Source: Actinomycetota bacterium (GTDB lineage Bacteria > Actinomycetota > Acidimicrobiia > IMCC26256 > JAENVU01). From it: DNA of 64,000 bases. The stretch is taken from the NCBI GenBank assembly GCA_016870395.1, contig VGBT01000011.1, positions 1 through 64,000 of the forward strand. The letters are read 5' to 3'. Positions 50,249 to 61,103 of this stretch are shown here, in pieces (the first letter of the stretch is position 1; the number at the start of each line of letters is the position of its first letter). Made by a program: the position numbers and the translations under genes. The notes beneath the pieces are model-generated. The model was not told the origin of the DNA. It made no database searches and worked only from the letters and a program-made list of their open reading frames with translations.

Positions 50249-52303
50249 TCAGCGCGGCGGGGCCGTCACCTCGACCAGGAACGCTCGCACCACGTCCGCG
50301 TCGACGACGCGGCGCATTGGCGGCAGGGCGTCGAGCAACACGTCGCGGTAGCCAGCAGTCGCGAGGCGGCGGTCGAGCACTGCTACCACGCCCCGGTCCG
50401 AGCGCGACCGGATCAGGCGGCCGACGCCCTGCGCGAGCACGAGCGCCGCGCCGGGCAGGTCGACGTCGCGGAAGCCGTTGCCGCCCTCGCGCTCGACGGT
50501 CTCCCGCCGGGCCTCCGAGAGCGGGTCGTCGGGGCGAGCGAACGGCAGCCGGTCGATGACCACGAGGACGCAGGTCGGCCCGGGCACGTCGACGCCCATC
50601 CAGAAGCTGCGCGTTGCCACCAGCACGGAGGCCTCCTCGGTTGCGAAGCGCTCGAGCAGCGCTGCCTTCGAGGAGTCGCCCTGCACGAGGATCAGGTGGT
50701 CGGTGTCGCGCAGCGCGTCGGCAATGCGCGTCACCGCCGCGCGCGACGTGCACAGGACGAGCGATCGGCCGCCGGCGGCGTCGACGAGCCGGTGGATCTC
50801 CGCGGTGGCCGCGTCGGGCCAGGCCGGGTCGCGGGGCTCGGGGAGGTGGCGGGCGACGTAGAGCAGCGCCTGGCTGCGGAAGTCGAAGGGCGAGTCGACC
50901 CGCAACGCCGCGTAGCCGCGACCGGGTCGGGGCCGATCGCCGGGCTCGTCGCCGAACTCGTGGTCGGCGTCGGGATCGAGCGGCAGCGGTCCCGGGTCGG
51001 TGGCCGGGTCGAGGCCAAGGCGTTCGGTGAGCGGCGCGAACCGGTTGCCGGCGCCGAGCGTGGCGGAGCACAGCACCGTCGGCACCCGAGTGAACAGGCG
51101 GTCGGCGAGCGTGTCGGCCACCGAGACGGGCGACAGGCACAGCGAGCCGTGCTCCTGCCATACGACGTCGCCGACGCGCGGCGCCTGCGCGCGTCGCAGA
51201 GCTTCGAGGCGGGCCGTGGCGAGCTGCGTGGTCTGCGCGGCTGCGGCCGGGTCGGGGCCGGGCTCGATGCGGGGGATCGCGGTGGCGAGGTGCTCCGCGG
51301 CCGACCCGAGCGCGTCGGCCAGCGCGCCTCGGGTGGGATCCAGTCGGCCCTCCGCGCCGTCGAGCGCGCGTTCCAGGGCGTCGGCCGCGGCCGCGATCGG
51401 GTCGGTGTCGCTGCGGGACACGCCCACCCCTGAGAGGCGGGTCGCGAGCTGGCGCAGCCCGAGCGGCGCGAGGTCGAGGCCGAAGGCGTCGGTGGCCACG
51501 TCGGCGAGCCCGTGCGCCTCGTCGAAGACCACGACGTCGTGCTCGGGTAGCACGTTGCCGCCCGACGCGAGGTGCGCGCAGTAGAGCGCGTGGTTCACCA
51601 CGAGCACGTCGGCCTTCGCCGCCCGGTCGCGGGCCCACTCGGCGAAGCACTCCTCCCCGTCGGCGCACTTGCCCCGCCCCGGACATTCTCGGGGCGCGCA
51701 GCTCGCGGCGCGCCGGGACGCATCCGCGATGTCGACCGCCGCGAAGTCGCCGGTGTCGGACGTGCGGGCGAAGGCTTCGAGCCGCTCGAGATCGCGAGTG
51801 AACGTGGGACCCGGCCGCTCGTCGAAGAGTGGCCGCCCGTCCAGGGCCGCCCGCAGCTTGGTGCGGCACACGTACTGGGAGCGGCCCTTCAGCAGGGCCG
51901 CCGTGAACGGCGCGCCCCCGTGGGTCTGGAGGTGTGGGATGTCCTTGCTCCACAGCTGGTCCTGGAGGGTGAGCGTGGCCGTAGCGATCACCACGCGGCG
52001 CCCGGCGACGGCGGCAGGGGCGAGGTAGGCGAGGCTCTTGCCCGAGCCCGTCGGCGCTTCCGCCACGAGGTGGTGGCCTGTCGCGAAGGCCGCGGCGACG
52101 GCGGCACACAGCTCCTGCTGGCCCGGTCGGTCCTCGCCCCCGAGTGCCGCCACCGCGAGCGCGAGGACCTCGGCGGCCGCCTCCGCCTCCTCCTCCTCTG
52201 ATGGTCGGCTTCGGCGTCGGTGGTCGTGCGCGCCGGCTGATTCGGGCGCCTCCGCCTCCTCCTCTGATGCCTCCGGCGGCGGCGGGTCCTGGTCCTCGCT
52301 CAT
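50249..52303 (-). CDS. dinG: DinG/XPD-family ATP-dependent DNA helicase
   Basis: Superfamily 2 helicase, 684 aa. Motif I is EAPTGSGKSLAYL near residue 85. Four clustered cysteines for an Fe-S cluster lie between YVCRTKL and CFAEWA (CAPRECPGRGKCADGEEC). Further motifs are NHALYCAHL, VVFDEAHGL, SATLGAG, and QGVGRLIRSRSDRG. ATG 52303 follows GGGGAG; the N-terminal 60 residues are acidic and low complexity. No LexA box is seen upstream, unlike dinG in E. coli. Confidence 0.92.
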   Translation of the reverse strand: MSEDQDPPPPEASEEEAEAPESAGAHDHRRRSRPSEEEEAEAAAEVLALAVAALGGEDRPGQQELCAAVAAAFATGHHLVAEAPTGSGKSLAYLAPAAVAGRRVVIATATLTLQDQLWSKDIPHLQTHGGAPFTAALLKGRSQYVCRTKLRAALDGRPLFDERPGPTFTRDLERLEAFARTSDTGDFAAVDIADASRRAASCAPRECPGRGKCADGEECFAEWARDRAAKADVLVVNHALYCAHLASGGNVLPEHDVVVFDEAHGLADVATDAFGLDLAPLGLRQLATRLSGVGVSRSDTDPIAAAADALERALDGAEGRLDPTRGALADALGSAAEHLATAIPRIEPGPDPAAAAQTTQLATARLEALRRAQAPRVGDVVWQEHGSLCLSPVSVADTLADRLFTRVPTVLCSATLGAGNRFAPLTERLGLDPATDPGPLPLDPDADHEFGDEPGDRPRPGRGYAALRVDSPFDFRSQALLYVARHLPEPRDPAWPDAATAEIHRLVDAAGGRSLVLCTSRAAVTRIADALRDTDHLILVQGDSSKAALLERFATEEASVLVATRSFWMGVDVPGPTCVLVVIDRLPFARPDDPLSEARRETVEREGGNGFRDVDLPGAALVLAQGVGRLIRSRSDRGVVAVLDRRLATAGYRDVLLDALPPMRRVVDADVVRAFLVEVTAPPR

Positions 52304-52536
52304 CCTGCTCCCCTCGCGGCGGGGAGGGTACGCCGTGGCTGGGACAGCGGGTCTCGCACCGGGCCTCCGCCACCACATTCACAACATGGGCCACGGCAGC
52401 AACACCAGCGCGCGACTCAGGGCTCCCGATCGACCACGGGGCGCGAAAGAGCCTGGAAATCCACGGTTTCTCGGCGGTTCCGTGCAAGGCTGCCAACAGC
52501 CAGCCGGCAACCTGCCTCCCACGAGAAGGAGCTTCC

Positions 52537-52818
52537 GTGAACCGCACCGAGCTGATTGGTGCGCTCGCCGAGCGCACCGAGTCCGACAAGAAGACGGCCA
52601 CCGCCTTCCTGAACGCCTTCACCGAGGTGGTCACCGAGAGCGTGTCCAAGGGTGACCCGGTCGCGATCAGCGGCTTCGCCAAGTTCGCGAAGGTGTTCCG
52701 CCCGGAGCGCCAGGGCCGCAACCCGGCGACCGGCGAGACGATCACGATCAAGGCCTCCAACAAGGTCCGAATCACGCCGCTGAAGGCGTTCAAGGACGCC
52801 GTCCTGGCCAGCAGGTAG
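52537..52818 (+). CDS. hup: HU-family DNA-binding protein
   Basis: Nucleoid protein, 93 aa, with the HU signature GFAKFAKVFRPERQGRNPAT, then GETITIKASNKVRITPLKAF. Start GTG 52537 follows GAGAAGGAG. It lacks the long Lys/Ala-rich C-terminal tail of mycobacterial HupB and is the plain short form. A UUCG-loop hairpin terminates it. Confidence 0.96.
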   Translation: MNRTELIGALAERTESDKKTATAFLNAFTEVVTESVSKGDPVAISGFAKFAKVFRPERQGRNPATGETITIKASNKVRITPLKAFKDAVLASR

Positions 52819-59983: not shown

Positions 59984-60039
59984 CCGCCGGGCAACCCGTT
60001 CGCCCCGGGTCGTCCCGATCGGGCACCATCTATGCCGCC

Positions 60040-60501
60040 ATGCCCACGCCGATCACAGTTCGCCTGCTGCCCGACCCCGACCAGCACGACCTGCTCGCGG
60101 CCACGCTCGAGCGGGTCAACAAGGCGTGCAACGCGGCGCGCACGAGGGCGCTCGAACGCAAGGTCACCGGCAAGGCCGAGCTGCGCGCCCTGGTCAGAGA
60201 GGAGCTGGAGCGCTTCAAGCTGCCGGCCACCTTCAACGCGCCGTCGGCAGATCGGGTCGCGGCGAGTCTGCGAGGCCAGAGGTTCGGGACCTACCAGACG
60301 CTGGTGCTCCCGCCCGCCGCCCTGAAGTGGCCGGCGACCGACCGGGTCTCCCTGCCGACCTCCGCCGGCAAGCGGACCGTCCGCGTCTACGTCGACCCGG
60401 CCCGCGGTAGTCTGCGCCCGCCCCTCGAAGGCAAGCCCACGGCCCTGGTGTACCGCAACGGCGGGTTTGAGCTCGTCGACGCCGGCAGCCCTCGGGGCTG
60501 A
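60040..60501 (+). CDS. Orphan TnpB-like N-terminal-domain protein without nuclease domain
   Basis: A 153-aa protein. VRLLPDPDQHDLLAATLERV, then NKACNAARTRAL, resembles the N-terminal start of IS200/IS605 TnpB/OrfB proteins (RLxPxxxQ...N.A). Later parts, FGTYQTLVLPPAALKWP and GKPTALVYRNGGFELV, resemble the RNA-binding (WED/REC-like) region. The RuvC nuclease half and zinc finger are absent: the ORF stops and a phosphatase gene starts two bases later. No TnpA or terminal hairpins are seen. A decayed transposon remnant or a domesticated RNA-binding domain are both possible. Confidence 0.5.
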   Translation: MPTPITVRLLPDPDQHDLLAATLERVNKACNAARTRALERKVTGKAELRALVREELERFKLPATFNAPSADRVAASLRGQRFGTYQTLVLPPAALKWPATDRVSLPTSAGKRTVRVYVDPARGSLRPPLEGKPTALVYRNGGFELVDAGSPRG

Positions 60502-60503
60502 CG

Positions 60504-61103
60504 GTGAGCAAGATCCTGCTCGTCCGGCACGGCCAGTCGGCCTGGAACGCCGACGGCCGCTGGCAGGGCCGAGCGGACCCGCCGCTCTCCGAGCTCGGCG
60601 AGCGTCAGGCCGCATCCGCGGTGACGAGCGAGCACGCCGAAGCCGTCGCGCACCTGTGGGCGTCGCCGCTGAAGCGCGCCAGCCGGACCGCGGCGGTGAT
60701 CGCTGCCGGCCGGGGACTCGAAGTCCGTTTCGACGCCCGCCTGATGGAGCGTGACGCAGGGGAGTGGACCGGGCTCACCCGCGACCAGATCGAGGCCGGC
60801 TGGCCGGGCTTTCTCGCCGACCGTCGCCGGCCTGCAGGTTTCGAGCCCGACGACGCCATCGCGAGTCGCGCGTTCGAGGTCCTCCACGAGATCGCGGCTG
60901 CGTGCGCGGGGGCCACCGCGCTGGTGGTGAGCCACGGCGGGCTGATCCGGGTGGTGGAGCGCAGCCTCGGTGGGGACGCGCCGCCGGTTGCCAACCTGGG
61001 CGGTCGGGAGCTCGTCGCGAGCGCCGGCAGCCTGGTGCTCGGTGACCGTCTGCTGCTCCTGGATCCCGACTCCGTCGAGGTCACCGCCCCCCGTCAGCTC
61101 TGA
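60504..61103 (+). CDS. Histidine phosphatase family protein
   Basis: Phosphoglycerate-mutase-like phosphatase, 199 aa. The phosphohistidine motif LVRHGQSAWN is near residue 6, the general acid region is LMERDAGEWTG, and the second histidine is in VVSHGGLIRVV. All catalytic residues are present. GTG 60504 lies two bases after the TnpB-like ORF stop, so the two are probably cotranscribed. The substrate is unknown. Confidence 0.87.
   Translation: MSKILLVRHGQSAWNADGRWQGRADPPLSELGERQAASAVTSEHAEAVAHLWASPLKRASRTAAVIAAGRGLEVRFDARLMERDAGEWTGLTRDQIEAGWPGFLADRRRPAGFEPDDAIASRAFEVLHEIAAACAGATALVVSHGGLIRVVERSLGGDAPPVANLGGRELVASAGSLVLGDRLLLLDPDSVEVTAPRQL

Follow-up and report, generated by a model that had tools for sequence, protein, structure and literature searches.

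A REC-lobe-only relative of TnpB kept as a chromosomal gene in one actinobacterial order

Positions 60040..60501 (+) of a 64,000-nucleotide stretch of an Actinomycetota genome (contig VGBT01000011.1, assembly GCA_016870395.1; hereafter the window) hold a gene with an ATG start for a protein of 153 amino acids. We conclude with very high confidence that this protein is the REC lobe (WED and REC domains) of an IS605/IS607-type TnpB, and that the whole NUC lobe (RuvC and TNB domains) has been lost. With limits set by analogy with ISDra2 TnpB, WED beta1 occupies residues ~1-10, REC ~11-81 and WED beta2-beta7 ~82-150; the codons of the WED beta4-beta5 hairpin (residues 102-117) lie at 60343..60390 (+), the equivalence to ISDra2 beta4-beta5 being inferred from the strand count. 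Two bases separate the stop codon from the start, at 60504, of a histidine phosphatase superfamily gene (60504..61103, +; PF00300, 3e-42), and a zinc-binding dehydrogenase gene (PF00107/PF08240; 59000..59983, +) lies upstream and is given for context only. An earlier note, made from the letters of the window and a list of its reading frames, had described the product as a stand-alone TnpB-like RNA-binding half without RuvC in good coding condition, two bases from a phosphatase gene.

Homologues were found, always in single copy per genome, in 29 of 61 related genomes (the carriers). Among these are 28 homologues of 147-173 amino acids as called, none of them fused to RuvC, and a 62-amino-acid fragment at a contig end (L026), which was left out of the alignment, the tree, the dN/dS pairs and the promoter count. 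The relationship to TnpB is not visible to single-sequence searches: the 153-residue protein alone had no match in Pfam or NCBIfam and no significant sequence match in the PDB. The family profile gave only chance matches to PDB sequences (myoglobin and similar, E ≥0.7), a member-by-member Pfam search gave one PF12323 match at 0.19 only, NCBIfam detected TIGR01765 (transposase N-terminal) in 2 of 28 members (best 0.005), and PADLOC returned nothing convincing for the family. A tblastn search of 72,556 plasmid records produced 3 matches at E ≤10, the best at E 0.01 with 27% identity over residues 1-149, and two of the three are annotated as TnpB, while the third is a TnpB with a broken frame that its record calls hypothetical.

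At the profile level the resemblance to the N-terminal part of TnpB, and to that part only, is clear, as the earlier note had supposed. The family profile retrieved full-length TnpBs from other classes (L097, E 6.9e-11; L098, 8.1e-11; L099, 7.7e-8); PF07282 scores above cut-off in these three and in the two plasmid TnpBs. Immediately beyond the aligned region, the TnpBs examined have the RuvC-I motif G[VI]D[LV]G, before which the REC-lobe protein stops. The strongest result for homology is the reciprocal search: a profile of these five TnpBs (362 positions) matched one place per carrier in 28 of the 29, always the REC-lobe gene and always through positions 1-160 only (best E 3.0e-15), the unmatched 29th carrier (G036) holding only the cut fragment. 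Alignment of the family and TnpB profiles with hhalign spanned 153 columns (probability 98.8, E 6e-17). No match to the family profile came from the TnpB-containing open reading frames (ORFs) of the class to which the host belongs (L067-L096; the best E, 0.79, was to a sequence that is not a TnpB), so the relation is to one particular TnpB clade, which occurs in other classes of the phylum and on plasmids. Weaker matches within the phylum run from E 4e-4 downwards, and the best of them (L100) has three internal stops. A phage origin is unsupported, since viral contigs gave no match and phages a single chance match at E 3. Three further observations concern TnpBs met in these searches. Plasmid pMESIL01 of Allomeiothermus silvanus carries a frame-broken TnpB of the related clade (L111:1983-3008), annotated as two hypothetical proteins. 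A genome of the host's class (G103; L074, L093) has 30 PF07282 matches, which is the number scored and far above the other sampled genomes. In the host's order, genome G011 holds TnpB-like ORFs (L072, L092) with N-terminal halves that look unlike those of the other TnpBs compared.

The predicted fold agrees with the sequence evidence in placing the WED and REC lobe within the TnpB/Cas12 superfamily. AlphaFold2, run on 28 sequences, gave a model with a mean predicted local distance difference test score (pLDDT) of 90.8 and a predicted template modelling score of 0.84, and L027, a divergent member that shares 38% identity with the window protein, was given the same fold (pLDDT 94.3). The first 18 rows of a Foldseek search of the PDB were all TnpB, Cas12, Fanzor or TranC (E 2.8e-4 to 1.6e-2). 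VIA-align superposed residues 1-150 on residues 3-174 of ISDra2 TnpB (8exa_A; Z 10.4, 136 aligned, 3.1 Å), its top row being Cas12f 9i8y_A (Z 13.2, 148 aligned). According to the part of the ISDra2 structural account drawn on here and below, WED comprises residues 1-12 and 117-176, REC 13-116, and RuvC begins at 185 (PMC10097598). Because the aligned span covers WED and REC and ends ahead of RuvC, the protein corresponds to the whole REC lobe and includes no part of the NUC lobe; seven strands are modelled, as many as in the ISDra2 WED. An unrelated fold, which the earlier note had named as grounds for abandoning its idea, was not what emerged.

All carriers among 296 genomes of the class (29) belong to the host's own order. 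The ratio of nonsynonymous to synonymous substitution rates (dN/dS; Nei-Gojobori, 14 pairs) ranges from 0.020 to 0.304, which together with the homologues in related genomes bears out the good coding condition of the gene. A tree of 28 family proteins and 6 TnpBs separates the two sets with 100/100 support. The family's nine groups by host family require 8 changes, the fewest that could be needed (shuffled mean 20.2); f1 by itself takes two changes, and the tree does not settle the order of the deep forks within the family. Relatives at the locus are short, and none is a full-length TnpB with a recent deletion. Constant length, purifying selection and a tree that follows host family show that this is not a recent deletion, and the gene has the features of a domesticated transposon protein: vertical inheritance, purifying selection and a position outside a mobile element. 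It is in our view nearly certain that the NUC lobe was lost before the sampled host families diverged and that the remainder has since been passed on as a chromosomal gene, one copy per genome, within one actinobacterial order (placed in Acidimicrobiia by the record titles). Its upkeep as a normal inherited gene within one bacterial order suggests that the front half of TnpB, the enzyme from which Cas12 descends, has acquired a separate role. One contig of a metagenome-assembled genome (L031, CAMBEL010000011.1), titled Bifidobacterium breve, carries the gene at 71% identity and is close to an Acidimicrobiia contig (L030); that title looks wrong, the records of the named relatives being otherwise titled Acidimicrobiia, Actinomycetota or Actinobacteria.

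Neither a nuclease half nor a transposon was found to accompany the gene. The protein lacks both the RuvC domain with its DED triad and the TNB zinc-ribbon domain of TnpB nucleases. PF07282 was found above cut-off in none of the 29 carriers, the window's own genome included (one weak match in G019, 18.8 bits), and the RuvC half of the related TnpB clade was not found in any of them at E 0.01, in line with the earlier report of no RuvC remnants. That report had likewise seen no tnpA and no transposon ends. The Y1 transposase (PF01797) is absent from the whole genome of the window, although serine TnpA was not searched for, and a repeat scan showed no clear transposon ends by the gene, which is weak evidence. 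Rfam matched no RNA at the gene, a result that is uninformative for an unknown RNA encoded in trans. In the window the phosphatase gene, two bases beyond the stop codon, occupies the site where an omegaRNA would normally lie.

To ask which surfaces have changed, we compared 28 family rows with 9 TnpB rows. Tyr at position 53 (9/9 TnpBs) is mostly replaced by Lys (19) or Arg (3 of 28), Tyr at 77 (8/9) by Leu (25), Asp at 91 (8/9) by Pro (21) or others, with a gap in one row, and Arg at 93 (8/9) by Ser, Ala, Gly or Thr. Positions 91-93 map to the T123/N124 stretch with which ISDra2 reads the transposon-associated motif (TAM), the mapping being approximate and made by counting from the ISDra2 sequence. 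Five residues are new and invariant in 28/28 (R25, Q86, R112, G123, P128), W97 is invariant where TnpBs have an aromatic residue, and T107 and G110 are kept from TnpB and invariant in 28/28, with K/R111 in 27/28. K/R111 and R112 sit on the WED beta4-beta5 hairpin, which in ISDra2 contacts stem 4 of the omegaRNA; more broadly, the TnpB REC lobe holds TAM DNA in the WED-REC cleft together with part of the omegaRNA scaffold (PMC10097598). The WED OB-fold (oligonucleotide/oligosaccharide-binding fold), including the hairpin and the Gly/Pro-rich loop that follows it, is under strong constraint and has conserved basic residues, and the predicted isoelectric point is at least 9.0 in 25 of the 28 proteins and 7.9 in the remaining three. 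On our analysis this residue pattern leans to RNA over TAM DNA.

These data suggest a domesticated REC lobe that would work as a non-catalytic nucleic-acid-binding protein. Since RuvC is missing, no adjacent guide-RNA gene was found, the TAM-side invariants are gone and the WED domain is strongly constrained and carries conserved basic residues, we propose that the protein may bind structured cellular RNA through the WED barrel, perhaps serving in post-transcriptional regulation or as an RNA chaperone, with expression from a leaderless promoter of its own. Identity and mechanism taken jointly, we hold this reading tentatively, at slightly less than an even chance. Several points tell against it. 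The ISDra2 omegaRNA scaffold binds a surface of WED and RuvC together (PMC10097598), so that much of the RNA surface has gone with RuvC. Conservation does not single out the RNA face, since the mean top-residue frequency of the hairpin (0.70) is not above that of the following loop (0.72), the last two strands (0.73) or REC helix 1 (0.71). The approximate mapping of TAM residues onto the family is our own reading of the alignments. The earlier label of an RNA-binding half is only half right: this is indeed the nuclease-less half of TnpB, but it is the whole REC lobe, which in TnpB also grips TAM DNA (in the part of the account cited above), and RNA binding here is predicted. What is supported, given fixed length, purifying selection and a tree by host family, is the earlier idea of a domesticated TnpB-derived protein without the nuclease half.

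Because the TAM cleft is kept, we at first favoured a sequence-specific binder of double-stranded DNA, a transcription factor or nucleoid protein still using the WED-REC cleft on a changed short motif, and lowered it after the residue comparison. The entire cleft that holds the TAM duplex in ISDra2 is indeed present, position 53 is typically basic and Q86 invariant, both being new, and linkage to an HU gene in nine carriers including the window is suggestive at most. But the parent-clade invariants at or near the TAM contacts have turned into Pro, small or hydrophobic residues, there is no known conserved target motif, and TnpB reads the TAM inside an RNA-loaded complex (PMC10097598), so the lobe alone may not suffice; we regard DNA binding as unlikely, though deserving of weight. 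Somewhat less probable still is a protein-protein adaptor or auxiliary subunit that lends its REC lobe to another nucleic-acid enzyme, like the second protomer of Cas12f. The best VIA-align matches include Cas12f B chains of ~175-200 residues (8dzj_B 197, 7wju_B 200, 9nzp_B 194, 9nzt_B 175), and the new invariants R25, W97, G123 and P128 could form an interface, whereas the TnpB nuclease half is found in 0/29 carriers and no neighbouring gene is conserved across all of them.

It is highly improbable that the REC lobe alone binds a guide-bearing RNA encoded elsewhere in the genome and acts as a nuclease-free, RNA-guided regulator in the manner of TldR. Descent from an RNA-guided protein and the retained WED hairpin fit such a role, but the channel for the guide-target heteroduplex is formed with RuvC (PMC10097598), absent here, the omegaRNA place is occupied in the window, Rfam gave no match and the TAM residues are lost. 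Were it true, this would be the smallest RNA-guided protein of the Cas12/TnpB superfamily, and guide-directed binding would need no NUC lobe. A decaying remnant or annotation artefact of a deleted TnpB has the least credence, next to none. Broken and truncated TnpBs do exist, such as the frame-broken copy on pMESIL01, but 28 homologues of near-constant length, dN/dS of 0.02-0.30, a tree by host family and confident folds refute it.

Set against known systems, the domesticated REC lobe resembles TnpB (ISDra2; nearest clade L097, L098, L099 and Rhodovastum WP_203330512.1) in its complete REC lobe and fold at 24-28% identity, but differs in lacking RuvC, TNB, a detected transposon and a detected adjacent omegaRNA, in its vertical inheritance, and in having lost TAM-side invariants and gained new ones. 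The closest known kind is the TldR repressors, likewise domesticated TnpBs that have lost cleavage. As described in part of their account, TldRs are nuclease-dead TnpBs that carry a mutated RuvC and use guide RNAs (PMC13418256); the present family has no NUC lobe at all, rather than an inactive RuvC, and a guide RNA was not found. The B chains of Cas12f, of roughly REC-lobe length, match over the whole protein (8dzj_B, 7wju_B), but there the lobe belongs to a full nuclease in a dimer, whereas the gene described here encodes the lobe by itself and no such nuclease was detected in its genome. We found no description of a conserved REC-lobe-only family in the open-access literature as searched by title and abstract start, subscription papers lying mostly outside that search, and on this basis consider the family a new form of domesticated TnpB. 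Such proteins may be a blind spot, as profile surveys may drop them as partial and Pfam and NCBIfam do not recognise this one; in the consulted part of a Fanzor survey, 166 candidates with no RuvC match were set down as possible partial proteins or false positives (PMC10432273). In the known exaptations of TnpB, the Cas12 effectors and TldR repressors, the RuvC fold is retained, whether active or dead. A lineage that drops the entire nuclease lobe yet keeps the recognition lobe under purifying selection would demonstrate that the REC lobe can function as an autonomous module, and the family offers a minimal natural setting in which to ask what WED-REC binds when guide and nuclease are both lacking.

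Family members sit in several genomic contexts in the carrier genomes, and no neighbouring gene is kept in all 29. A phosphatase gene lies 3' of the REC-lobe gene in 14 of them (13 by motif and G022 by clustering); the carriers with other neighbours are 12 from family f10, two from f14 and one from f6. The phosphatase is probably co-transcribed with the REC-lobe gene in the window, but a neighbour conserved in just 14 of the 29 carriers is no obligatory partner, and a phosphatase-coupled function was set aside. An HU (histone-like) gene lies at 52144-52818 (+), ~7 kb upstream of the REC-lobe gene. HU is also found upstream in eight relatives (L114, L115, L116, L119, L122, L123, L139, L141), directly adjacent in two (f14, 110 nucleotides), and this linkage, shared with the window (~52.5-52.8 kb), marks the region as old.

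A scan for a consensus sigma-70 promoter and a terminator found none. The -10-like hexamer CACCAT (60024..60029, +), ending 10 nucleotides before the ATG, is a candidate leaderless promoter. Shine-Dalgarno-like motifs occur at chance level (3 against 2.9 in 28 homologues). A YANNNT hexamer ending 6-12 nucleotides before the start codon occurs in 23 of the 28 homologues, against a mean of 2.8 and a maximum of 9 over 1000 shuffles. The pattern was picked after viewing the sequences and counted over related rows; for L023, translated from a downstream GTG in the alignment, the likelier in-frame ATG 18 nucleotides upstream was used in this count. It is on this post hoc pattern that a leaderless transcript from the gene's own promoter is put forward as a candidate.
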